A stretch of 64,000 nt of DNA from assembly GCA_015231755.1 (NCBI GenBank), contig JADGAZ010000002.1:62001-126000 (forward strand), given 5' to 3'. Positions 23,055-37,570 of this stretch are shown in pieces. The translations under genes and the position numbers were made by a program. Within the stretch, counting starts at the first letter, position 1, and every line of letters begins with the position of its first letter. The notes below the pieces were generated by a model. The model searched no databases, was not told where the DNA came from, and saw only the letters and a list, made by a program, of their open reading frames with translations. The stretch is from Magnetococcales bacterium (GTDB taxonomy: Bacteria; Pseudomonadota; Magnetococcia; Magnetococcales; Magnetaquicoccaceae).

Positions 23055-23537
23055 ATGAACAGCATCCGCGCCGCCCTCCGGCAACGCAAGGAAGAAGGCT
23101 TTTCCCTCGTGGAAATGGCCATCGTCCTGGTGATCATCGGCCTGATCGTCTCCGCCATCGCCGTGGGCAAAACGACCATGAGAAAAGGCGAAGCCACGAA
23201 AGCCTATCAGCAATATCTCAACCCCTGGATTCAAAACGCCCTCAACACCTACCAGGGCACGGGTACAGCCGGTTGGGGTACCAACGCCGACCTCAAGGAC
23301 ACCTACAATTTTGGTGCCGGCACCATCGCCAAGACCACCAGCTATCCCACCTATACCGCTGGCATTCTGGAGATGCGCTTCACCCTGACAAGCCTCACCG
23401 CCGATGAATCCCAGGAATTGATGGGTGTGTTCAAAAATGCCCTGACCAACTCGGCGACCTCCGTGACGGTTAGCACGACCTCTCTGCAAGTGACCTTCAA
23501 CGTTCCGGCTGTTTCGCAGACCGCCACCGGCACGTAA
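23055..23537 (+). CDS. Type IV prepilin (probable major MSHA-like pilin)
   Basis: 160 aa. A 15-residue charged leader ending in Gly is followed by FSLVEMAIVLVIIGLIVSAI: a class III signal sequence cut between Gly15 and Phe16 by prepilin peptidase, with Glu at mature position 5. The remaining about 120 residues are Thr/Ser-rich with no Cys, so there is no disulfide loop. AAGGAG precedes the ATG at ideal spacing, a sigma-54-like promoter lies 190 nt upstream, and a terminator follows at 23557, so it is an independently expressed unit, as expected for a major pilin. Oriented opposite to the rest of the pilus locus. Confidence 0.88.
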   Translation: MNSIRAALRQRKEEGFSLVEMAIVLVIIGLIVSAIAVGKTTMRKGEATKAYQQYLNPWIQNALNTYQGTGTAGWGTNADLKDTYNFGAGTIAKTTSYPTYTAGILEMRFTLTSLTADESQELMGVFKNALTNSATSVTVSTTSLQVTFNVPAVSQTATGT

Positions 23538-23606: not shown

Positions 23607-25112
23607 ATGGCCCATCCCATGTCAAAAACACTTCAATCCACCATGACTCAGCCTCTGTTGTGGTGGATTGGACTGTATTGGCTCATTACCCCCAATTACA
23701 ATCTCATCCCGGATATCCAGCTTTCCGCCTACGACGAACAACGGTTCTTTGAGTTGCTTCTGCTTGCTTGCGGCATGCTTTTGACCCTCGTGCCGCCATT
23801 CCGCTCCCAATGGCTTGGGGTTTTGCATGCGATCCCCGGTCGCCTGCAAAGCGTAGTCGCACTTTTTTTCCTGTGTGGTATCCTGTCCGCGTTGCTGGCC
23901 CACTCTCCCCAGGCGGCCATCCAGGAGGTATCCCTGCTGATGATGCTGACCATGCTCGCCATCGGCATCGCCGCCCACCTGCGCACCCACGGGGAGCAGG
24001 CTGTGGTGCTGGTCGTGGTGTTGATGATGGGGGCTTGCACCTGGATCAGCCTGCTGTTGCTGGATGATTTTTTCTACTTTCTCGAATATATGAAGTTCAT
24101 GCTCGACCCGACCCGATTCTTTTCCCGTTTTGTCAGCCTGCGCTTTTTCAACCAGTTCCAGACCTGGACCTTTCCCCTACTCGCGCTGCCCTATCTCTTC
24201 TGGTCCGCACGTCTGGGACGCTGGAAATGGGCACTCTATCTGCCGAGCGCCTTGTGGTGGGCTTGGTGGATGTTCACCGGTGGCAGAGGCGTATTGATGG
24301 CCATGGTGGTGGTTTGTGTCACCCTTGGGGTCATGTTTCGCAAACAGGCTCTGCCCTGGCTGCATTTTCAAGGGCGTGCGCTGCTGGCAGGATTAATAAT
24401 TTATATCGTCTTATTTGAAACACTAATCCCCGCCAATACCAGCGAAACTCTGCTGCGGTTGCACGATCCCGCCCGACTGAAGCTGTGGTCCGCCGCGTGG
24501 CAGATGATGATGGAACACCCCTGGCTGGGCATCGGCCCCCAACATTATGCTTGGTATTATCCCTACCAACTGGCCGCGCATCCCCACAACCTCTCACTGC
24601 AAATCCTGGCGGAATGGGGCATTCCCGCCTTTGTGGCCTCTGCGGTGATCACGATTTGGGGCGGGCTGGGATGGTTTCGGTCGGCTGCGGGACAGGTGAA
24701 AGAGGAGTCGGTCACCTCACCGGTGCTGCACCACACCCGCATCGCCCTGACCGGTTCATTCGTGGCCGGCATCACCCATGCCCAGGTATGCGGACTGCTG
24801 GTGATGCCCATCAGTCAAGTGACGGGGGCCTTGGTCTTGGGCATGATGCTGGGCCTGCATCAACATACGGCCCCCTCGACTCCCCCTCTGGTCTCCGTCT
24901 CCTCCCGATCCCAGGCTTGGATCCTGGGCCTGGCGGGCCTGATGCTCGTCTCGGTCTTGAGCTGGAGCCTGTTCCCCAAAATCACCCGCTTGCAGGATGA
25001 CAAACTCCACTTCACCCAAGCCTATCCCAAACTTCCATACGCGCCGCGATTCTGGAATCAGGGGTTGATTCATCTGCCGGAGGCGGCTCCGCCCCCCCCT
25101 AACCCCTCATGA
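23607..25112 (+). CDS. O-antigen ligase / PglL-type oligosaccharyltransferase-like membrane protein
   Basis: 501 aa, about 12 hydrophobic segments. The N-terminus has the PNYNLIPDIQLSAYDEQRFFELL pattern, and the large loop contains HPWLGIGPQHYAWYYPYQ followed by AAHPHNLSLQILAEWGIPA, the conserved His-Asn block of Wzy_C proteins. That family includes WaaL ligases, Wzy polymerases and PglL/PilO O-oligosaccharyltransferases of pilins. Its position right after a prepilin on the same strand, inside a pilus locus and away from the LPS genes, favours transfer of glycan to pilin; this is inference. No Shine-Dalgarno was seen at the chosen ATG, and Met codons at 23619 and 23643 are alternatives. Confidence 0.75.
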   Translation: MAHPMSKTLQSTMTQPLLWWIGLYWLITPNYNLIPDIQLSAYDEQRFFELLLLACGMLLTLVPPFRSQWLGVLHAIPGRLQSVVALFFLCGILSALLAHSPQAAIQEVSLLMMLTMLAIGIAAHLRTHGEQAVVLVVVLMMGACTWISLLLLDDFFYFLEYMKFMLDPTRFFSRFVSLRFFNQFQTWTFPLLALPYLFWSARLGRWKWALYLPSALWWAWWMFTGGRGVLMAMVVVCVTLGVMFRKQALPWLHFQGRALLAGLIIYIVLFETLIPANTSETLLRLHDPARLKLWSAAWQMMMEHPWLGIGPQHYAWYYPYQLAAHPHNLSLQILAEWGIPAFVASAVITIWGGLGWFRSAAGQVKEESVTSPVLHHTRIALTGSFVAGITHAQVCGLLVMPISQVTGALVLGMMLGLHQHTAPSTPPLVSVSSRSQAWILGLAGLMLVSVLSWSLFPKITRLQDDKLHFTQAYPKLPYAPRFWNQGLIHLPEAAPPPPNPS

Positions 25113-25119
25113 CAAAAAA

Positions 25120-25746
25120 TCACTGCCCCCCGCGCACCGGCCAGACATACAAATTACTGACCGTGCTTTGCCCCTGACCGGGAGGAGCCTTGCGATTGGA
25201 AGAGACCACACCATCGGTAAAATCCACATACCACGCCTTGGTCGTATCGCTGGCCAAAGGGGTGCTGGTCCAATACTTGTCCGCCTGAAGAGAAACGAAG
25301 GGATGTCCAGACTGCACAGGCACGCTGGTATTGCCCAAATCCAACAGGCTTTCCAGTTCCAGACGCGATGGCAAACGCCAGTCGGTGTAACTGCCCGTGT
25401 AGGTGTTGCTGGAACAGTTGTTGGTAGAGCGCGTGGTATTGAACGCAACGATTTTGGTCAATGCCGCGGACCATTGCATGGAACCCCAGCAGTTGGCATT
25501 CTTCAACCACATCAAACCGGTTAATTTATCCACGACACTGCCATCACTCCGGTCACTAAAACGGGTGGTTGGCCATGCCACGCCTTTTTGCAAATCCCCG
25601 TCTTCACCGCTGCGCGCACCATCGTATCCAATCGTCTGACCGGTCTTTGGAACCAGAGCACTGGATGCGCACCCATCGGCACTCACGCCCAAGAGGCCTG
25701 ACAATCCCATCACAAACAGACCTGCGATTGCAAAATTCTGCCTCAT
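25120..25746 (-). CDS. Secreted Lcl/DUF1566-domain protein
   Basis: 208 aa with a hydrophobic N-terminal signal peptide (about 1-24). The rest is one Lcl_C/DUF1566 domain: FSDRSDGSVVDKLTGLMWLKNANCWG, DWRLPSRLELESLLDL, KYWTSTP and a final YVWPVRGGQ. These domains occur in secreted and fimbria-associated proteins, and the C-terminus of the Legionella collagen-like adhesin Lcl gives the name. It shares every block with the C-terminal domain of the adjacent prepilin fusion, so the two probably arose by duplication. Start at 25746 is supported by AAGGGGA upstream; it follows the fusion gene by 14 nt in one operon. Confidence 0.82.
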   Translation of the reverse strand: MRQNFAIAGLFVMGLSGLLGVSADGCASSALVPKTGQTIGYDGARSGEDGDLQKGVAWPTTRFSDRSDGSVVDKLTGLMWLKNANCWGSMQWSAALTKIVAFNTTRSTNNCSSNTYTGSYTDWRLPSRLELESLLDLGNTSVPVQSGHPFVSLQADKYWTSTPLASDTTKAWYVDFTDGVVSSNRKAPPGQGQSTVSNLYVWPVRGGQ

Positions 25747-25760
25747 GCGTCATCCCCTTG

Positions 25761-27275
25761 CTACTGACCACCCCGTACCGGCCAAACATAATACTGCTTC
25801 GATTTGGTATCACTGGCAATCGCGGCACTGTCCAGACTCACGGCCCAGGCATTGTTCGCCGGTTGACTGATGGCATAGGAAGTGCTGGTCCAGTACCAAT
25901 TGTTCTGCACATTTTCCGGCGCGGGCAATCCGCTTGTGGGCACGGGAATGGCGGGTGAGTATCGTCCCATATCCAACAAACTGCTCAACTCCCGACGATT
26001 GGGCAGACGCCAATCGTTTAATGTGCCGGTGTATGTGGGAGATGTGGTGCAATTATAGCCCGTGGTGCGACTGTTCAAGGCCGTCACCTTGTCCAGGGCC
26101 TGGGTCCAGGTCATATTTCCCCAACAATTCGCATTCTGCAACCAACTCAATCCGGTCAGATTGTCCGTGATCGATCCATCCCCGTTGTCCGAGAAACGGT
26201 AAACCTGATACCACAAAATGCCAATGTTGGAGGTTCCGGTCAACTGGGCAGTACTGATATCATCTCCGGCAGCCGTCGCCGTGGCGGTGGCCAGATATTC
26301 AGACGAATAGTTCTTGCCCATCGACACCACACCGCTTCTCACCGTCAATTGAAACAGACGATTGACGGTATTCCCCACCCCATCCTTGAGATAGATGCGA
26401 ATATCGTGCTTGGTTCCCGTGGAACTGCCATCCCCCAGATCAAACTCGGAACTGCCTGTCATGGTCAACGTCGAGGAACTGCCCGATGCAAACGACGCTC
26501 CGCACCCGCCACTCCCCACCACCGAGACGGAGGCGGGAGATGCAAAGGAGAGATCACCATTCAAAAGGCCGCTGGCAATCGCACTGCTTTCCACACACCA
26601 TTGATAACTGGAACCACTGCCACCCTGGGCCGTAAACGTCTGGGTTCCATAGGTCTCAAGCTCGAAACCAACCGGCAACGCATTGGCAACCAGGGTCAAG
26701 GTGGTGCTGGATTCCAGATCCTGGCAACCAAAAGACTTCTTCAATTCATCCAATGTCACCCACTCCAGAATATCATCCGTATCATCGGTGATATCGCTCG
26801 GAGTGCCATTGTTGCTGTACACGGTATTGGGAAAGGGGGTGGAGACGGCAATGGCGCCGGCGGTTTTGTCGGGTGTGGTGGTGGCGTTGTTGACCTGGCC
26901 GTTGCGGCCATTGCTCCAGATCACCAAGGCCACACTGCTCAAACTGTCCACCGAGAGATAACCGGAAGGGGTGGCGCACACCGAGCCTGTGGTGACCAAA
27001 CGGCTGTCAAAGGCGTATTGAATGGTATTTTGATACCCATCGAGCTGATTGGGAACCACACCACCAAACTCCGTGGCATTCGGCAAGCGGCCATTGGCGG
27101 TGGCGTAACCAATCAAGGCGCTCTTGTCGGCACGCAACGCCGAGACCGTTTTTTCCCGCCCGATGGTCTCCATGTTGGGGGCCAGCAAGGTCAACGTGGA
27201 GACGCCAATGGCCACGACCATCATGAACAGCGCCATGCCAATCAGGCTGAAACCGGCGGATTTTTCAGTATTCAT
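25761..27275 (-). CDS. Large prepilin-like protein fused to Ig-like and Lcl/DUF1566 domains
   Basis: 504 aa from the ATG at 27275 (GGAG upstream). Class III signal KSAG then FSLIGMALFMMVVAIGVSTL: the pilin N-helix is present but mature position 5 is Gly instead of the usual Glu. A prepilin body like that of the next protein upstream follows (NTIQYAFDSRLVTTGSVC; SVALVIWSNGRNG), then a Ser/Thr-rich Ig-like stretch (YGTQTFTAQGGSGSSYQWCVE), and from about residue 370 an Lcl/DUF1566 domain ending YYVWPVRGGQ. Probably a minor pilin that displays an adhesive domain at the pilus tip. Tip position is inferred from the missing Glu5 and domain size. Confidence 0.85.
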   Translation of the reverse strand: MNTEKSAGFSLIGMALFMMVVAIGVSTLTLLAPNMETIGREKTVSALRADKSALIGYATANGRLPNATEFGGVVPNQLDGYQNTIQYAFDSRLVTTGSVCATPSGYLSVDSLSSVALVIWSNGRNGQVNNATTTPDKTAGAIAVSTPFPNTVYSNNGTPSDITDDTDDILEWVTLDELKKSFGCQDLESSTTLTLVANALPVGFELETYGTQTFTAQGGSGSSYQWCVESSAIASGLLNGDLSFASPASVSVVGSGGCGASFASGSSSTLTMTGSSEFDLGDGSSTGTKHDIRIYLKDGVGNTVNRLFQLTVRSGVVSMGKNYSSEYLATATATAAGDDISTAQLTGTSNIGILWYQVYRFSDNGDGSITDNLTGLSWLQNANCWGNMTWTQALDKVTALNSRTTGYNCTTSPTYTGTLNDWRLPNRRELSSLLDMGRYSPAIPVPTSGLPAPENVQNNWYWTSTSYAISQPANNAWAVSLDSAAIASDTKSKQYYVWPVRGGQ

Positions 27276-27335
27276 GACCACTCCGCAACACCCGGGCACG
27301 GTTTTTCGGTTCCGAACGACGAGCCCCGGCCCCTG

Positions 27336-28419: not shown

Positions 28420-29640
28420 TCATCCCACCATGCTGTACAACGGCATGAACATGCCCAAAAGCAGCACCACGAACATGCCGCCTCCCAACACCAAGGCGAT
28501 GGGCTCAATGCTTTTGCCCAGGGTCTTGACGGTGTCGTCCAGGCGTCGTCCATACTCTTCGGCGGCGAAGTCCAACTGGGTGGACAAGGCGCCGCTGACC
28601 TCGCCGATACCGATCATGCGCACCACGAAGGGCGGAAAGATTTTGGCGTCGGCAAAAGAGACCCGCAGTCCCAGACCATTGATCAATCCGGCGCGCACTT
28701 CGAGCATCTTTTCCTTGTAGACCTCGTTGCCCAGCGATCCCCCCAGGATGTCGATGCTCTTGATCACATCCACGCCGGCATTGAGCAACAGGCTGAAATA
28801 TTCGGTGATGAAGGCCAGATTGGAGGCGTTGATGATCCGGCTGATGATCGGCAGCCACAGCATGAATCCATGGACCTTGCGGCGAAAAATATAAACCTTT
28901 CTCATCAAAGTTTTGAACGTGACAAAAAACACGAACATCCCCAACCCGATGAATCCCAGATAATCCCGCAGGAAGTCCGCCGCCCCGATGATGCCTCGGG
29001 TCAAAGCGGGCAGTTCCTTGCCCGTGGCCTGCAACAAAGGCAGCATCATCGGCACCACGAAATACAGCCAGAACGCCATGGCGCCGATAATGGCGGTGAA
29101 CATGAACGCCGGATACATCAAGGCACTTTTGGTTTCCCGGAAGATCTTATCCACCTTGATCATGTGCAAGGAGGCATCCTTGATGGTGCGATCCAGCGAG
29201 CCGGTCTCTTCGCCGATGCGCATCAGAAACAGGGTGGTATCCGGAAAGAAGCGGCTCCAGCTTTTGGCGGCCTCCGACAGACTGGCTCCGGAGTGGATAC
29301 GGCTGACCAGATCCTGTCCCAGTTTGGCGAGGGTGGGATTTTCGTTATCCGCCATGGCGTCCTGGATGGCGGCCACCACCGGAATGCCGGACTTGAGCAT
29401 GATGGCCACGTTGTTGAGGGCTTCGGCCATGGTGGCCACATCGACCTTGGTTTCAAAGAACCGTTCCAGAATGCCGTAGAGGGTGCCCACCACCGGATGC
29501 AACGCCCGGGCGAAAATCACCGCGCCCCCTTTGCGCTCCAGATAGGAGGTGGCGGAAATGGGACTGTCGAAGGGCAAATGGATCAATCCGCCACGAATCA
29601 CGCCTTCCTTGGCGATCAGCTTGTAATAAAAATAGGCCAT
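28420..29640 (-). CDS. mshG: Type II secretion/type IV pilus inner-membrane platform protein (MshG/PilC/GspF)
   Basis: 406 aa, the GspF-family length. Two repeated cytoplasmic domains, each followed by membrane segments: about 175-200 (ALMYPAFMFTAIIGAMAFWLYF), about 222-246, and a C-terminal span about 378-402. Marks include LMRIGEETGSLDRTI in the first repeat and MIGIGEVSGALSTQL in the second, the conserved G(E)xSGxL motif. The platform turns ATPase work into pilin extraction from the membrane. It starts 16 nt after the ATPase gene. A 151-nt gap to the prepilin upstream in coordinates contains a small hairpin (28316-28333) and no gene. Confidence 0.93.
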   Translation of the reverse strand: MAYFYYKLIAKEGVIRGGLIHLPFDSPISATSYLERKGGAVIFARALHPVVGTLYGILERFFETKVDVATMAEALNNVAIMLKSGIPVVAAIQDAMADNENPTLAKLGQDLVSRIHSGASLSEAAKSWSRFFPDTTLFLMRIGEETGSLDRTIKDASLHMIKVDKIFRETKSALMYPAFMFTAIIGAMAFWLYFVVPMMLPLLQATGKELPALTRGIIGAADFLRDYLGFIGLGMFVFFVTFKTLMRKVYIFRRKVHGFMLWLPIISRIINASNLAFITEYFSLLLNAGVDVIKSIDILGGSLGNEVYKEKMLEVRAGLINGLGLRVSFADAKIFPPFVVRMIGIGEVSGALSTQLDFAAEEYGRRLDDTVKTLGKSIEPIALVLGGGMFVVLLLGMFMPLYSMVG

Positions 29641-29656: not shown

Positions 29657-31309
29657 TCAATGTCCCAACACCCGAATCACTTCCTTGACCGTGGTCTGGC
29701 CAAGTTTCACCTTGCGGGAGGCGCAATGGAAGATGGTCCGGTAGCCATGCTTGATGGCGGACTCTTCCATGGTGTCCACATCCACATCCCGACCGATCAT
29801 GCCCGCCAGTTCCCGGTTGGAACGCAAAATTTCATAGATCAGCGTCCGCCCCATGTAACCGCTGTGATGGCAATCCTCGCAGCCCCGGCCCCGCCACAGG
29901 GTGGTGATTTCCGGATCCCGCAGATAGGCCAGTTCTTCGGCAGACGGATGATACTCCTCCTTGCATCCGGGACAGATCTTGCGCACCAGTCGTTGACTCA
30001 CCACCCCCACCAGGGAGTCCGCCAGCATGAAGTTGGGAATCCCCAACGAACGCAAACGGGGAATGGCCCCCAAGGCGGTATTGGTATGCAGGGTGGACAG
30101 CACCAGATGGCCGGTTTCCGAGGCGGAAACCGCGGTCTGGGCGGTTTCGGTGTCACGGATTTCACCCACCAGGATCACATCCGGGTCGTGACGCAGGAAA
30201 TAACGAATGGCGCTGGCAAAGGTGTAACCGGCCTTGACGTTGATCTGGGTCTGCCGAATCAGAGGAATACGGTACTCGATGGGGTTTTCGACGGTGAGAA
30301 TGTTTTTTTCCGTGAGGTTGAGACGACGCACCGCCGCGTACAAGGTGGTGGTCTTGCCGGAACCCGTGGGACCGGTCAACAGCACGATGCCGAAAGGTTC
30401 GTTGAAGATTTCGGTCATCAGATCCAAATCCTCGTCGAACACCCCCAACTGACGCATGCCCATGAAGTCACCCTTGGCGGGCAACAGACGCAGCACCAGA
30501 TTTTCGCCGTAGGGGCAGACCGTGGACGAAACGCGGAAATCGAACTGATTGTTCAAGATCATCTCGGAGAAACTGCCGTCCTGGGGAAGACGCTGCTCGG
30601 AGATGTCCATGCCGGCTTTCATCTTGAGGGTGGAGGTGAGGCGTTTGAAGGTCAACGGAAGAGCGAACTGGGCGCGCATCACGCCGTCCACCCGGAAAGC
30701 CACGCTGATGGACATGTCCATGGGGCGGATATGGATGTCGGACGCCCGGGCCTTGACCGCCAACTGCAACAGATGATTCACGAACGAATCCAGGGAGCGC
30801 ACCCCGTCCCGGTCCGCCGCCAGGAGTTGGATCTCCTTTTGGATGAGCCGTTCCACCGGGTTTTCCAGGAAGTAATAATAATACTGGATGGCGTTGATGA
30901 TCTTGCTTTTTTCGCCTTGGCGCACCCGGGGTCTCAAACCGGTGGCCCGGGCGATGAATTTTTCCAATCCGTCCACGTCGTCGGAGTAGGTGACGACGAT
31001 CACCTCTTTGGCGTCGTTGAAATAGGGCAAAAACTTGTGGGCCATGCAGGCTTGAATGTTGAACAGGCGCAAACTCTCCGGAGAGGGCCGTTTCTGGTCC
31101 ACATCCACATACTTGCGTCCGTCCTGATCGGCGATGGTGGTGGCGATGTCGTACTGGGAGATGAAACCCAACCGTTCGAGGATTTCACCCACCCGTTCCC
31201 GGGTCACCTTCTGGTCTTGCAGGGCCAGTTCGATGTGGGAGTCAATGATCAGCCCCTTTTCTTTCAGGAGCTCACCGATCTGTTTGGTGACTTTTTCCGC
31301 CTCGGCCAT
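29657..31309 (-). CDS. mshE: Pilus extension ATPase with N-terminal c-di-GMP-binding-type domain (MshE/PilB)
   Basis: 550 aa. Residues about 8-60 contain two MshEN-type motifs: a degenerate QIGELLKEKGLIIDSHIELA and an intact RVGEILERLGFISQYDIATT. The ATPase core has Walker A GPTGSGKTT (313-321), Asp boxes, Walker B in DPDVILVGEIRDTETA, a His box (HLVLSTLHTNTA) and the Zn-binding CPGC/CEDC cysteines near the C-terminus. In Vibrio MshE these N-terminal motifs bind c-di-GMP and drive MSHA pilus extension; here that is inferred from motif 2. Between the AAA+/SPOR gene and the platform gene. Confidence 0.93.
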   Translation of the reverse strand: MAEAEKVTKQIGELLKEKGLIIDSHIELALQDQKVTRERVGEILERLGFISQYDIATTIADQDGRKYVDVDQKRPSPESLRLFNIQACMAHKFLPYFNDAKEVIVVTYSDDVDGLEKFIARATGLRPRVRQGEKSKIINAIQYYYYFLENPVERLIQKEIQLLAADRDGVRSLDSFVNHLLQLAVKARASDIHIRPMDMSISVAFRVDGVMRAQFALPLTFKRLTSTLKMKAGMDISEQRLPQDGSFSEMILNNQFDFRVSSTVCPYGENLVLRLLPAKGDFMGMRQLGVFDEDLDLMTEIFNEPFGIVLLTGPTGSGKTTTLYAAVRRLNLTEKNILTVENPIEYRIPLIRQTQINVKAGYTFASAIRYFLRHDPDVILVGEIRDTETAQTAVSASETGHLVLSTLHTNTALGAIPRLRSLGIPNFMLADSLVGVVSQRLVRKICPGCKEEYHPSAEELAYLRDPEITTLWRGRGCEDCHHSGYMGRTLIYEILRSNRELAGMIGRDVDVDTMEESAIKHGYRTIFHCASRKVKLGQTTVKEVIRVLGH

Positions 31310-31352: not shown

Positions 31353-34300
31353 TTATCGCCGCGCCGTTGGCGACAGCCCCATGATTATCCCTTTCCGACC
31401 GAATTTCAACTCCATCTCCCGCAAAAGCTGTTCCGCCTGCCCCCGCTCCTCCACGGGCGGAGTGCGCAACGCATACCAGGTATTGCCATCCGGTTTGGAA
31501 ATGTTGGCAATCACCGTCTCCACTCCCTTGTCGGCAAACCCCTTGCGAAACCGCTCCGCCTCGGCCTCGGTGCGCACGCTGGCCAACTGAATCACCCAGA
31601 TCCCCCGCCCCGACAATACCCCCCCCTTCTCCCGGGTTCCGGCTGATGCGCCCGCCTTCTCCTTTTCCCGGGCCGGAGGCGTTGCCACGAGCTTGTCCCG
31701 GGTCGGGGAGGGATGGCCCTGTTCCTGACTCAACCAAAACAAGGTGGCGATATCCGGATAACCGGTGACCGGCAGATTGCGCTGCTTTTGGAACTGGGTC
31801 ACGGAACTCATGGTCTTGCGGCCGACGATGCCGTCGGAAGGATCCGAGTAGAAGCCCACCCGGCTCAACTGCTCCTGCAAGGCCCGCACCTCCGGCCCGG
31901 AATGATCATAATAAAACGACTTGATGACAATATCCGGCTGCCAGAACAACAGCCGCTTGCCCCCGTGGTTCAACACCGCATGTTTCTGCTCCAGTCCAGG
32001 AGGCAACGCCGACAGGGAGACCAGATGCAAGCCCTTTTCCTCTTCCACCCGTCGAGCCACCCCTTCCAGCCATCCGTCAGCCAAACCCCGGGCGAACATC
32101 CCCTCGTACTCCCCCAGACCATAGGCCGCCAGAAACCGTTTCAGCTCGGGGGTGACACTGCCCGAATCCCGGGCCTCGCCACGACCACCCGGAGCGGAAA
32201 GCTCGGCAATGCGCTCACGGGCGATACGCAGTTCCTGTTTGGCCTTCTCCGCCTCCACCCGCGCCAGATCCACATCCTGGGCCACCCGCTCCCGGGCCTG
32301 AACCGCCTCCTCCATGGCCTTGCGGGCCCGGGCCTCCGCCTCTTTGGCCCCGGCTTCCGCCTGCTTGCGGGCCTGACTCAACTCTTCCATGGCCTGGGCG
32401 CGTTTTTTGGCCTCTTCCTCGGCCTTGGCCACCAACGCTCCCGCCTTGGCCGCTTCCGCCTCCCGCTCCTCCATCGCCTTGGCGTGGGCGCTCCTGGCCT
32501 GGGACAAAGCCTGCTCACGGCTGGACTGATCCAGATTGCGCGCCTGCTCGATGGCCTTGATCCCCCGCTCCGACTCCTCCCGCAGCTTCCGGGCCTCCTC
32601 TTCCGCCCGCTTGCGGGCCGCCAAAGCCTCGTTCAACACCCGCTGCGCCTCGACCTTGCCCTTTTCCAGCTCCTGACCGCTCTTCTCCTGCTCGGCTTGC
32701 ACCCGGGCCAACTCCCGGGCCGACTCCTCCCGCACCCGTTTGGCTTGCGCCTCCGCCTCACGCTGTCCCTCTTCGGCACGCTTCAGCTTGGCCTCCGCCT
32801 CGGCCTTGGCCGCCGCCACCGCCTTTTCCGACTCCACACGCAACGCCTCGATGCGCTGCAAAGCCGCCTGGGCCTCCTGACGGGCGGTCTGCGCCTCTTT
32901 TTCCGCCTGCTCCCGGGCCCCCTGGGCCACGGTCAAGGCCTTCTTCTCCTCTTCGGAATGAACCGCCCGGGCTTCCGCCTCCTGACGGGCCTTGTCCGCC
33001 GCCTCCTGAGCGCTTTTGGCACTGGCTTCCGCCGCCTTACGGGCCTCCGTCGCCGTGACCAACGCCTTGCCACGGGCCTCCGCCTCGGCTTGGGACTCGG
33101 CCAACCGGCGATGGGCCTCCGCCGCTTCCGCTTCGGCCTTGCGCTTGGCCTCCGTGGCCTCGGTCAACGCCTTGGCCTGACTCTCGGCACGGCTCCGGGC
33201 CTCCGCCAACGCCCCCTCGGCGCGGCCAGCCGCGGCCTCGGCAGCCTCCCGGGCCTCCCGAGCCTCGCTCAACGCCTTCTTGCGCGCCTCGGCTTCCACC
33301 TGGGAAACCTCCCGGGCATTGGCCACCTGGGTCAACGCCTTGGCTTCCACCACCTGGGCCTGGGCCACAGCCCCGCGGGCCTTCTCGCTTTCGGCGCGGG
33401 CCTTGAGCAGCTCCGACGCCGCCGACTCCCGAGCCGCCCGGGCCTGCTCCAGTTCTGCCGATGCCCGCTCCCGCTCCGACCGGGCGCGGGCCAACTCCGC
33501 TTCCACCTTCTCTTGCGCCAGCCGCACCGACTCGCTCTCCACGCCCCGGCCCGCCCCCTGTAACCACTCCCCCCGCCACCCCATGACCGCGATCGCCAAA
33601 CCCGCCGCCGCCAACACCCCCGGTCCGATCCGCCAGCCCCAACGCTTCCAGTTCACCGCCGGGCGGCTCATGTTCAGCTCACGGGCCACTTCCAGAATCA
33701 GACGCCGACTCAACCGCATGGTATTGTAGGCGAACAATCCGTACAAACAGCGATCCATCAAGTTGTTGAGCCGACGGGGATTGCCTCCGGTCAACACGTG
33801 CAACAAACGATAGGAGGCATCGGGAATCGTCACCCCCCCGGATGACCCCGCCGAAGTGAGCTTGAAGGCGATATACCGCTTCAACTCCTCCAGGTCATAA
33901 GGCCGCATGCGGGCATGCACCACAATCCGGCTCTTGAGCTGCCGCAATTCGTGGGCGTCAAGTTTGGTTTCCAGCTCCGGTTGACCCACCAGAAGAATCT
34001 GCACCAGCTTTTCGGCGTGTTCTTCCAGGTTGGAGATCATCCGCACCATCTCCAGACTCTCCATGGTGAGATTCTGGGCATCGTCGATGACAATGGCGCA
34101 ATTGATCCCGGCGGCGTAACGGTCGATCAAAAACCGATTCAAGGCCGCCATCTGCTCCTGGGGACCGGTTTTGCCTTCCACCACGATGCCGAAGTCCCGG
34201 TTGATCTCCTCCAGCAGCGCGGTTCCCTGAATGAAGGTGTTGAAGACCAGAGCGGTCTCCACCCGGGTTTCGTCCAGGGTGCGCAAAACCCGGCGGCTGA

Positions 34301-34583
34301 CCGTGGTTTTCCCCAGTCCCACCTCCCCGGTGATCATCAAAAAGCCCTTGCGGGTATGGATGCAATGCAAAACTTCGGTAATCAGGGTATCGATGCGGGT
34401 CGGCAGGAAAAACACATCCGCATCCGGGGCCACCGGGAAAGGATTGCGCTTGAGCCCCAAAAAACGCAGATAGGCCTCGCTCTCCTTGGCCATGGTCACC
34501 AGCTTGGCGACATCATCCCAGCTTTCGGGTTGGGGATTGGGTGAGGAGTTGGCCGGCTTGCGGGAAGCGGTCATGGGATGCAT
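31353..34583 (-). CDS. Giant ExeA/MshM-like AAA+ ATPase with coiled coil, PG-binding and SPOR domains
   Basis: 1076 aa. Order: cytoplasmic AAA+ domain (about 45-300) with Walker A GEVGLGKTT, Walker B IVIDDAQN and the GspA/ExeA-type FLGLKRNPFPVAPD start; one membrane span about 314-331; an Ala/Glu/Arg/Lys-rich coiled coil about 346-790; an ExeA-like segment; a peptidoglycan-binding domain about 892-949 (GPEVRALQEQLSRVGFYSD, GIVGRKTMSSVTQFQ); a C-terminal SPOR domain about 992-1067 (WVIQLASVRTEAEAERF). ExeA/GspA remodel peptidoglycan for secretin insertion; MshM is the MSHA counterpart but is far shorter. ATG at 34583 overlaps the preceding stop (TGATG). The long coil and the SPOR domain are unusual. 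Confidence 0.9.
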   Translation of the reverse strand: MHPMTASRKPANSSPNPQPESWDDVAKLVTMAKESEAYLRFLGLKRNPFPVAPDADVFFLPTRIDTLITEVLHCIHTRKGFLMITGEVGLGKTTVSRRVLRTLDETRVETALVFNTFIQGTALLEEINRDFGIVVEGKTGPQEQMAALNRFLIDRYAAGINCAIVIDDAQNLTMESLEMVRMISNLEEHAEKLVQILLVGQPELETKLDAHELRQLKSRIVVHARMRPYDLEELKRYIAFKLTSAGSSGGVTIPDASYRLLHVLTGGNPRRLNNLMDRCLYGLFAYNTMRLSRRLILEVARELNMSRPAVNWKRWGWRIGPGVLAAAGLAIAVMGWRGEWLQGAGRGVESESVRLAQEKVEAELARARSERERASAELEQARAARESAASELLKARAESEKARGAVAQAQVVEAKALTQVANAREVSQVEAEARKKALSEAREAREAAEAAAGRAEGALAEARSRAESQAKALTEATEAKRKAEAEAAEAHRRLAESQAEAEARGKALVTATEARKAAEASAKSAQEAADKARQEAEARAVHSEEEKKALTVAQGAREQAEKEAQTARQEAQAALQRIEALRVESEKAVAAAKAEAEAKLKRAEEGQREAEAQAKRVREESARELARVQAEQEKSGQELEKGKVEAQRVLNEALAARKRAEEEARKLREESERGIKAIEQARNLDQSSREQALSQARSAHAKAMEEREAEAAKAGALVAKAEEEAKKRAQAMEELSQARKQAEAGAKEAEARARKAMEEAVQARERVAQDVDLARVEAEKAKQELRIARERIAELSAPGGRGEARDSGSVTPELKRFLAAYGLGEYEGMFARGLADGWLEGVARRVEEEKGLHLVSLSALPPGLEQKHAVLNHGGKRLLFWQPDIVIKSFYYDHSGPEVRALQEQLSRVGFYSDPSDGIVGRKTMSSVTQFQKQRNLPVTGYPDIATLFWLSQEQGHPSPTRDKLVATPPAREKEKAGASAGTREKGGVLSGRGIWVIQLASVRTEAEAERFRKGFADKGVETVIANISKPDGNTWYALRTPPVEERGQAEQLLREMELKFGRKGIIMGLSPTARR

Positions 34584-35602
34584 CAAGGCAAATGGCGCAG
34601 CATTTCCCCAATGCGGGGGTCACCGGGATAGAGTCTCGACAGGCCGTGCAACCGCTCCCGGGATTCCGCCGTTCGCTGGGTGCGCATCTCCACCACCGCC
34701 ATGTTCAATCCGGCCTCCAGATCGTCCTTGCGACGCTCCAGGACCTGTTTCAGATAGATTTCGGCCCGATCGTAACGACCTTTGGCCACCTCCCAGTAGG
34801 CCCGCATGTTGAGCACATAGGGATCCGCCTCCCCACCGGCTTTGACCTTGCCGAGTTTCACGAACAGGTCATGAACCGATTTGGCATCGTCCCGGCCCAT
34901 GGCCAGTCTCAATTCCGCCACCACCCGGGCCACATCCCGCTCACGGGTTTCCAGCACCTCGGGAGCCACGACAGGCTCGGCCTTGGGGGCAGCCCGACGG
35001 GCCTGGGACAAGGCGAGACGCTCTTCTTCCCGGCTCACCACCAGCGGGGCCGGTTCACCGCCGGGGTTGGCGCCCTTGGCGGCGGGCTTGCCGGCATGGC
35101 TCTCCGGCCCTTCGGGGGCGGCGGAGTCGGCAAAAATGGCCAGGAATTTCTCTTCGGAGAGCGCTTCCTGTTTGGCATCGGCTTGGGGGTCGGCCGGAGT
35201 TTCATTCAGAGGCAGGTTTTCCGTGGCCCCTTCTGGACCAATGCCGGCGAACAACTCCTCGTCGATGGCACTCTTGGCTCCGGCTTTGGCCTCCGGGGCG
35301 CTCTTGGCGGCGACAGCCGGACTTTTGGCCTCCACAGCCGTCGGAGGCTTATGCTCCGCAGCGGAAAAAAACGTCCAATACACCCCGCCCCCGATCCCCG
35401 CCAGCACCACCACAGGCAGTGCCACCACCGCCGTTCTCACCAGCAGGGAGGCTTCGAGAAACCAGGAAACGAACCGGGCAAAAGGCCCAGAACCAGAATC
35501 CGTCTCATCATCGATGATCCCACCCTCGCCATCAAGCCTGGGAATCATGGTGACCGCTTCCGCCCGTTTCCGGTTGCGCAGAGCTTGATAAATCACGCTC
35601 AC
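34583..35602 (-). CDS. MshN-like bitopic TPR protein
   Basis: 339 aa. The start MSVIYQALRNRKR matches the 'MSVINQML' type N-terminus of MshN/GspB-like proteins. There is one membrane span at about 52-79, a low-complexity Ala/Pro/Glu linker (about 80-220) and a C-terminal TPR-like helical region (DDAKSVHDLFVKLGKVKAG...YDRAEIYLKQVLERRKDDLEAGLNMAVVE). Probably a periplasmic partner of the secretin and the AAA+ protein. ATGA overlap with the secretin gene and TGATG overlap with the AAA+ gene show tight coupling. Confidence 0.7.
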   Translation of the reverse strand: MSVIYQALRNRKRAEAVTMIPRLDGEGGIIDDETDSGSGPFARFVSWFLEASLLVRTAVVALPVVVLAGIGGGVYWTFFSAAEHKPPTAVEAKSPAVAAKSAPEAKAGAKSAIDEELFAGIGPEGATENLPLNETPADPQADAKQEALSEEKFLAIFADSAAPEGPESHAGKPAAKGANPGGEPAPLVVSREEERLALSQARRAAPKAEPVVAPEVLETRERDVARVVAELRLAMGRDDAKSVHDLFVKLGKVKAGGEADPYVLNMRAYWEVAKGRYDRAEIYLKQVLERRKDDLEAGLNMAVVEMRTQRTAESRERLHGLSRLYPGDPRIGEMLRHLP

Positions 35603-37494
35603 AGGATGGTCACCCGCAGCATGATGACCAGTTCCCGGGTGGTTTCGTTCTCCTGGTCATGGGTGAACAGCCGACCCAGCAATGGCAGTTCCGACAGCAC
35701 CGGTGCGCCGGTGCGATACTTGGTGGCGGTTTTGTCGATCAGACCTCCCAGCAACACCGTATCCCGATCCTGAAGTTCCAACAACGTACTGATCTCTTTC
35801 AGATTCACCTGGGGCAGGGAGACCTCGGAAGCCCCGAATTTCTTGGCATCCAGACTGCCGGACACCAGTGAACTCTGAATCGGATGGATGGAGAGGGTAA
35901 TCTTGCCATCGGTGGAGATGAAGGGCACCACCCCCATCATCACCCCGTCGAACAGGGTGGCGGTGGTCACCTCGGTGGTGGGGGCGGCCCCGGCCACGGT
36001 GGCGGCGGTCACTTTGGTCTGTTGCACGTAGTTGCTGGACTGGCCCACGCTGATCATGGCGGGCTGGCCATGACGGGCGCGAATGGTGGGATTGGACAGG
36101 GTGCGCACGTCGCCAAACTGCTTCAACAGATCGATGAAGGCTAGGCCATGGGAACCACCCAAGGTGAGACCCAGACCGGCGGGTTTGGCTCCCTGCAAGC
36201 CCAAAGCACTGGTGGTCCCGGAGGTGGACGTGCTGGGAATGCCCACAGCCACATGTCGATTCGCGGAGGCGTTGAAGGGATCATTGCCAACGATGGTACC
36301 ATCCGCAACCACCACCCCCTGCCCGACACCCAAAGTGGAGATGGTCTGGGTGATGCCACTGGTCAAAGCCAGATTCGAGCGCAGCAAGGCCCAGTTGATG
36401 CCGGCCTGATACTGATCGCTCAACTGCACTTCCATCAAGCGGGCCTCGATCAGGATCTGACGGCCTAAAATCTCCTTGTAGCGCTGCACCAGATCGGTGA
36501 CGGACTTGACCGCCGAGGGTTTGGAACGGATATACAGGGTTCCGGTCTGACGGTTGATCTGATAGGTGCCTTTTTTCTCACCCACCAGATTTTGCAGGGT
36601 CTTTTCGATGGGTTCGTAGGGATTGGTGGACTTGGCGCCCCCCGTCATGGCAAAGCCGCCTTTCAACCCGGTACCGGCTGCGGGGGCTCCGCCTCCGCCG
36701 GTGGCCCCGCCACCGATGCCCGTCAGGGCCGCGGCGCCCAACACATCCCCACCCGACTCGAAGGTGGAGGTGACATTGGTTTCCAGGAAGTTCAGGGGAA
36801 TAACCACCTCCTGGAACGGTTCGACCCGCAACAGGTTGTCTTCGATCACGCCATGGAGGTCCGCCAGTCGCAACACCTCCCGCAGCACCGTGGCGGCGGA
36901 GACCTTTTGAAAACTGACCGTGATGAGGGGGGCTTCTTCCAGCACAGCCGGATCCAGCAAAAGATTCAGGTTGGCCTGCTTGGCCAGGGCGCGCAACGCC
37001 TGACGGGCATCCACCTTGTCCATTTCCAAGGAGACCATGATGTCGGAAAGACGGTCGTATTTGGGCAAAACCGGAGCCGGCATCACCGGAGGGGCAATGT
37101 GTTCCATGGCGCGCATTTGATCGTTGCGCGCTCCGAGTCCCTTGGTTTCGCTCACCATCCGGCCATGGAGGTTGCGATCCGGAGATTCGTTGGACAGGTG
37201 CTGGGCATCCCGGTTGATTTCCCGGCTGGTGCGTTCCCAGCCTGGAAATTCTTCAGCCTTATCCGCCGCTTTGGCCAAAGGCTTGTCGCCAGGCTTATCC
37301 CCTTTTTTGTCCGCATTCCCCTCCCGTCGTCGTTCCAGGGCGGCAGACTCCTCCACCACGGCTTTGTGGGCAGCCGCCATGGATCCCGTGTCTCCCGAAC
37401 CCGGATTGCCGGAGACCATCTCGCCCGTCTTGCATCCGCCCATCACCAGAGCCAGACACACGATGCCACCGATCATCCATGCTTGCTTCATCAT
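35599..37494 (-). CDS. mshL: Outer-membrane secretin of MSHA-type pilus (lipoprotein)
   Basis: About 631 aa from the ATG pair at 37494/37491; the frame is open to 37533. Signal peptide with a lipobox-like MGGC, so probably a lipoprotein. Order: Pro/Lys-rich linker, STN-type domain (VSLEMDKVDARQALRALAKQ), secretin N1-like domain with TGTLYIRSKPSAVKSVTDLVQ, and the C-terminal secretin beta domain (LTLGGSHGLAFIDLL, SNPTIRARHGQPAMISVGQ, RDTVLLGGLIDKTATK, LPLLGRLFTHDQENETTRELVIMLRV). A Gly-rich stretch (GGGATGGGGAPAAG) sits between the domains. First gene of the main pilus operon, behind a sigma-70-like promoter at 37571-37599. Confidence 0.92.
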   Translation of the reverse strand: MMKQAWMIGGIVCLALVMGGCKTGEMVSGNPGSGDTGSMAAAHKAVVEESAALERRREGNADKKGDKPGDKPLAKAADKAEEFPGWERTSREINRDAQHLSNESPDRNLHGRMVSETKGLGARNDQMRAMEHIAPPVMPAPVLPKYDRLSDIMVSLEMDKVDARQALRALAKQANLNLLLDPAVLEEAPLITVSFQKVSAATVLREVLRLADLHGVIEDNLLRVEPFQEVVIPLNFLETNVTSTFESGGDVLGAAALTGIGGGATGGGGAPAAGTGLKGGFAMTGGAKSTNPYEPIEKTLQNLVGEKKGTYQINRQTGTLYIRSKPSAVKSVTDLVQRYKEILGRQILIEARLMEVQLSDQYQAGINWALLRSNLALTSGITQTISTLGVGQGVVVADGTIVGNDPFNASANRHVAVGIPSTSTSGTTSALGLQGAKPAGLGLTLGGSHGLAFIDLLKQFGDVRTLSNPTIRARHGQPAMISVGQSSNYVQQTKVTAATVAGAAPTTEVTTATLFDGVMMGVVPFISTDGKITLSIHPIQSSLVSGSLDAKKFGASEVSLPQVNLKEISTLLELQDRDTVLLGGLIDKTATKYRTGAPVLSELPLLGRLFTHDQENETTRELVIMLRVTIL

Positions 37495-37570
37495 CCGCGA
37501 CCCTTTATTGGGATCCATGGAACGGATACCCACTCATTCTGGGGGAAAAAAGCATATTCCATACAAAGAA

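Follow-up and report, generated by a model that had tools for sequence, protein, structure and literature searches.

The MSH pilus operon

The window, which is the whole stretch of 64,000 nt of DNA that was analysed, carries a set of MSH pilus genes on the minus strand, and all features described below lie on that strand unless stated otherwise. The MshL secretin (35599..37533) matches TIGR02519 with 264.2 bits against a cut-off of 250.2. It is followed by an MshN-like TPR protein (34583..35602; TPR_19), the mshM-like gene (31353..34583), the MshE extension ATPase (29657..31309; MshEN domain, NF053729 with 43.5 bits against a cut-off of 38, and also PilB/GspE-like by NCBIfam) and MshG, a PilC-type inner-membrane platform protein (28420..29640; GspF/PilC profiles). 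The mshM-like gene encodes 1076 aa from an ATG start, and its start codon and the stop codon of the upstream gene overlap in the shared sequence TGATG. MshL, MshE and MshG are the mandatory genes of the MSH system (PMC6668835), and all three were found here in one locus with mshM. Pilin-like proteins with an N-methylation motif are encoded downstream of the pilus operon genes and may include a major pilin of the MshA type. The 22 mshM orthologues occupy the same operon slot. The order MshL-TPR-MshM-MshE-MshG is common to 22/22 loci, allowing for contigs that end early; the TPR gene is upstream of mshM in every one, and the MshL orthologues share contigs with the MshM orthologues. This operon context bears out the identification as MshM that had been proposed from the sequence alone. 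Assignment to the XrtA/PEP-CTERM-associated ATPases (TIGR03015) was rejected, as the score of 215.5 bits is below the cut-off of 324.5.

Several neighbouring features were also observed. The N-terminal c-di-GMP-binding motif of MshE scores above its cut-off, and the pilus is therefore probably c-di-GMP-controlled. Two Lcl_C (PF07603) proteins follow the pilus genes (25120-25746 and 25761-27299, both minus); the longer is pilin-like at its start and might be an adhesive pilin. A pilin-like protein (23055-23537) adjoins a Wzy_C/TfpM-like O-oligosaccharyltransferase (23607-25112), both on the plus strand, and the two are a possible pilin glycosylation pair. A literature search on pili in magnetotactic bacteria returned nothing relevant.

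Domain architecture of MshM

The N-terminal part of MshM is an AAA+ ATPase domain (33669..34478; residues 36-305). AAA_22 matches residues 77-208 (E 2e-24, above the curated Pfam cut-off), with a Walker A motif (GEVGLGKTT) at residue 86 and a Walker B motif (IDD) at residue 166. The fold resembles those of Cdc6/ORC, TnsC and MuB, and this domain is the most conserved region of the protein (dN/dS 0.03-0.08). A single transmembrane segment follows (33582..33638; residues 316-334 by hydropathy, with a model helix at 321-334), and then a long Ala-rich linker.

Three folded domains form the C-terminal part. The first (31905..32150; residues 812-893) consists of three helices and β strands, is modelled by AlphaFold with a pLDDT of 91.5 and is present in 22/22 orthologues; a Pfam search with this domain gave no match. 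It is directly followed by a peptidoglycan-binding domain, PF01471 (PG_binding_1; 31740..31901; residues 895-948, E 6e-17, above the curated cut-off), which was likewise found in 22/22 orthologues and has SleB and CtpB as solved relatives. The last is a SPOR domain, PF05036 (31386..31607; residues 993-1066, E 1e-8, above the curated cut-off), with FtsN and DedD as solved relatives. Its glycan-contact residues are Gln999, in the first strand, and Ser1002, and the Gln is unchanged across 18/18 SPOR-bearing orthologues. Contact of a SPOR domain with glycan has been demonstrated in RlpA (PMC6895207). The sequence-only reading had described five parts (AAA+ domain, membrane span, coil, peptidoglycan-binding domain and SPOR domain), and the Pfam matches above cut-offs, the one hydrophobic segment and the coil score confirm each of them; its list missed the conserved domain at residues 812-893.

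The linker is a constrained coiled coil

The linker (32190..33539; residues 349-798) was delimited by heptad score, periodicity, salt bridges and model helices. Over about 445 residues it contains 28% Ala, 20% Glu and 20% Arg/Lys. In a scan with a COILS-type scoring matrix, about 444 residues within 346-798 score P > 0.5. When neighbouring proteins were scanned as controls, six of the eight had no residue above this value, and the other two were MshL (31 residues) and a histidine kinase (75 residues). The mean score of the coil is 1.69 versus 1.48 (sd 0.014) in composition-preserving shuffles, and the heptad z is ~13-15. Two matrix-free measures were also compared with shuffles: hydrophobic periodicity at 3.5 (z = 6.7) and enrichment of i/i+4 salt bridges (z = 7.9). 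Because the signal exceeds the shuffles in score, periodicity and salt bridges, it is more than composition, and composition alone was ruled out as its source. In the assigned register, 65% of the d positions are Ala and 38% of the a positions are Leu, Ile, Val, Met or Phe, values that are partly circular because the register was picked for a high score. Ala-rich d positions are a pattern familiar from tight antiparallel coils.

Selection on the coil was estimated from pairs of orthologues. dN/dS was 0.20 and 0.30 in two close pairs and 0.18 in a third that is more diverged; the linker between the peptidoglycan-binding and SPOR domains (PGB-SPOR linker) gave 0.76 where it was computable. An assembly artefact of a repetitive gene was ruled out, because independent genomes carry a coil of similar length and the coil is constrained. 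The coil is thus not disordered, nor is it just filler. The earlier claim of a heptad coil of ~445 residues rich in Ala, Glu, Arg and Lys is thus upheld by the shuffle, periodicity and salt-bridge tests.

Predicted hinges divide the coil

An AlphaFold model of the MshM monomer, built with the 22-sequence alignment (pTM 0.37, with low confidence at some hinges), places four helices in the coil at residues 349-422, 428-550, 562-680 and 686-796. With a rise of 0.15 nm for each residue, they would measure ~11, 18, 18 and 17 nm. Hinge 1 (33303..33317; residues 423-427) has a counterpart in 13/14 long members, in which the heptad register breaks or weakens around linker offset 78-101. Hinge 2 (32901..32933; residues 551-561) lies in a region with pLDDT < 50 (residues 542-568), and register breaks were observed close by in several families. 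Hinge 3 (32529..32543; residues 681-685) varies in position within the family; of the three, hinge 1 alone shows wide conservation. The division of the coil into four helices is a model prediction, and the helices may pack as a bundle. The coil had been described as near-continuous; its length stands, and its seamlessness does not, given the model breaks at 423-427, 551-561 and 681-685. With four predicted helices there would be no need for a 65-nm rod, and the coil would fit a normal periplasm. The conflict that had been pointed out between a 65-nm coil and the thickness of the periplasm is weakened by this prediction.

Variation of MshM within one order

The 22 MshM orthologues come from 21 genomes of one order, probably Magnetococcales, and every one is located in the MSH slot. 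Two linker classes were observed. Long linkers (14/22) extend 325-477 residues after the transmembrane segment and are nearly all coil; short linkers (8/22) have 40-104 residues and no coil, and are mostly Pro-rich. By a slightly different length measure, 12 of the 14 long coils fall at 408-469 residues, and none of the 22 linkers lies between 98 and 311. The coils of 408-469 residues have a median pairwise identity of 31%. The coefficient of variation of length is 0.12 for the coil versus 0.57 for the PGB-SPOR linker. The tree of the AAA+ domain and the tree of MshE each require four changes between long and short labels, and a short form (G010) occurs beside four long forms within the window's own genus. 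The simplest reading of the history of the coil is one gain followed by several losses, since the long coils can be aligned with each other and have hinge 1 in common.

Alignment shows the SPOR domain in 18/22 orthologues, and Pfam at E 0.01 finds it in 17. The four without it are three short forms that branch early and one member with an early frame end, and 18/19 members of the derived clade carry it. All five parts (AAA+, transmembrane segment, coil, peptidoglycan-binding and SPOR) are complete in 13 members from eight genera and seven families, and five SPOR-bearing orthologues have no coil. One genome (G019) has two MSH operons, at L057 (9024-10637) and L049 (6089-8911); one encodes a long-coil MshM with SPOR and the other a short MshM without SPOR. 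In another genome (G026; locus L135 on contig C403), the operon reads MshL-TPR-MshE-MshG without mshM, and the TPR gene is separated from mshE by 24 bp. No mshM orthologue was seen elsewhere in the G026 assembly, and this operon appears to be a natural mshM deletion. The coil-free orthologues and the mshM-less operon indicate that the coil, and perhaps MshM itself, is not strictly required.

Distribution outside the order

The sample comprised 398 genomes, all from Pseudomonadota, of which 350 lie outside the class of the window. Among the matches listed, which were ranked by score, full-length matches to a profile of the 812-893, peptidoglycan-binding and SPOR domains were confined to the class, and none of those listed from the 350 genomes outside it had the combination. 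The best match outside the class, again among the matches listed, was in G265 and covered the first two domains only. A search of genome contigs gave three remote matches. In the ~400 sampled genomes and the matches listed from them, the full architecture is restricted to one order. The earlier statement that MshM normally has the AAA+ domain only is not supported: five MshM proteins of other Pseudomonadota (L095-L099), which are encoded beside MshL, have AAA_22 and PG_binding_1 without SPOR or a long coil. Because peptidoglycan-binding MshM exist elsewhere, the additions in this order are the coil and SPOR only. By these domain matches, an ExeA-like arm on MshM is more widely distributed than first thought.

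Proposed role and alternatives

We propose, with a probability of about one half, that MshM is a secretin-assembly factor of the ExeA/GspA kind, which is anchored to the wall and has in addition a foldable spacer and another anchor. It would be the counterpart of ExeA/GspA in the MSH pilus. By analogy, the cytoplasmic AAA+ domain would multimerise at the inner membrane, and the periplasmic arm would bind the wall, allowing the MshL secretin to be built into the peptidoglycan there or to be threaded through it. The MshN TPR protein would probably take the role of ExeB/GspB. In this order the arm appears to have acquired a second wall anchor, SPOR, which should prefer peptide-stripped glycan, and also a homologous coil of ~440 residues. 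The coil is most likely folded back on itself as a bundle of three or four helices of 11-18 nm each, and it could serve as a spacer, foldable or extensible, that separates the ATPase from the domains bound to the wall; folded as a bundle, it would fit within the periplasm. In Vibrio cholerae, deletion of mshM or mshN leaves surface pili unreduced (PMC4624765). Together with the mshM-less operon of G026, this means that the role may be partial or conditional, or may concern placement and not assembly.

The SPOR domain makes septal targeting of MshM plausible, and a tentative alternative, to which we give about half the weight of the proposed role, puts this domain at the centre. Stripped glycan at new poles or sites of division would recruit MshM, which would place the pilus there, as had been suggested from the sequence, with the coil providing reach only. 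The SPOR fold with its invariant glycan-contact Gln and the retention of SPOR in 18/19 members of the derived clade are consistent with this, and known SPOR proteins are linked to division or morphogenesis (PMC6895207). However, a SPOR domain can be a plain wall anchor, as in the Legionella secretin LspD (PMC9239104), and MshM has a general peptidoglycan-binding domain as well.

It is rather unlikely that the coil is a low-complexity spacer, neutral and free to expand, whose length has no function, and that MshM is accessory or regulatory. The several long/short switches within the order, the operon without mshM and the normal pili of the Vibrio cholerae mshM deletion (PMC4624765) would all agree with this view, but the purifying selection on the coil resembles that on folded domains, the lengths leave a gap at 98-311 with much tighter variation than in the PGB-SPOR linker (0.12 against 0.57), and hinge 1 is shared. 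Slightly less probable still is a more far-reaching view, in which selection maintains the coil as a spacer of set length. By folding and unfolding, the coil would let the inner-membrane AAA+ ring hold a SPOR-marked septal or polar wall patch at an adjustable distance, and the secretin would be inserted only into wall under remodelling. If this were true, the coil-less lineages would have lost such control of secretin insertion. Least probable is a rigid TolA-like rod of ~65 nm that runs along or across the envelope and through which the AAA+ ring would transmit force, or movement driven by ATP, to the wall: long stretches do remain in one heptad register and the i/i+4 salt bridges are strong, as in stable single helices, but the AlphaFold model breaks, register breaks recur (hinge 1 near offset 80 in 13/14) and some lineages have no coil.

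The proposed role as a wall-anchored assembly factor bears on the passage of large secretins across the peptidoglycan and on the choice of their site. A single order holds natural variants that have or lack the coil of ~440 residues and that have or lack SPOR, as well as one operon lacking mshM, and they allow the contributions of wall anchoring and spacer length to be compared directly.

Comparison with known systems

Several proteins in the genome of the window belong to the ATPase family of MshM. At one locus (L061, 6432-11788), two AAA_22 proteins flank a GspE-like ATPase. Another, the DamX-type L062 (7632-9731), has, like MshM, an AAA_22 domain of the cytoplasmic type and a SPOR domain at its C terminus; unlike MshM, it has no PG_binding_1 match, and no pilus operon genes were detected adjacent to it. 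In TolA and other long periplasmic helical stalks, as in MshM, a helical linker rich in Ala, Lys and Glu joins a membrane span to a distal domain. In contrast to MshM, TolA is not known to have an ATPase or wall-binding domain, and the MshM coil has about double the length and contains predicted breaks.

The MshM proteins of MSH pili (VC0403 of Vibrio cholerae and the longer L095-L099) occupy the same slot by MshL, MshE and MshG. Those of L095-L099 also share the peptidoglycan-binding domain, whereas 0/5 have the coil or SPOR.

ExeA/GspA are likewise built of an AAA_22 ATPase, one transmembrane segment and a periplasmic PG_binding_1 arm, with a secretin as partner; MshM has the cytoplasmic-type AAA_22 domain with a single transmembrane segment, and PG_binding_1. 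ExeA binds to peptidoglycan, on which it forms multimers with ExeB, and assembly of the secretin ExeD depends on it (PMC4098917). GspA differs in having a C39-like domain (PF21327) and no long coil, and the MshM described here adds the long coil and SPOR. Between the transmembrane segment and the peptidoglycan-binding region of MshM, PF21327 gave no Pfam match and an hhalign probability of < 1%, and a C39-like identity of residues 812-893 was rejected by profile comparison and Pfam. A Foldseek match to the periplasmic arm of Vibrio vulnificus GspA (PDB 4g54) has an E value of 0.1 and may stem mainly from the peptidoglycan-binding part. As residues 812-893 are not detectably related to the C39-like domain, the arm is not a mere copy of the ExeA arm. 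MshM here is a well-bounded version of a known assembly ATPase and not a new class of system.
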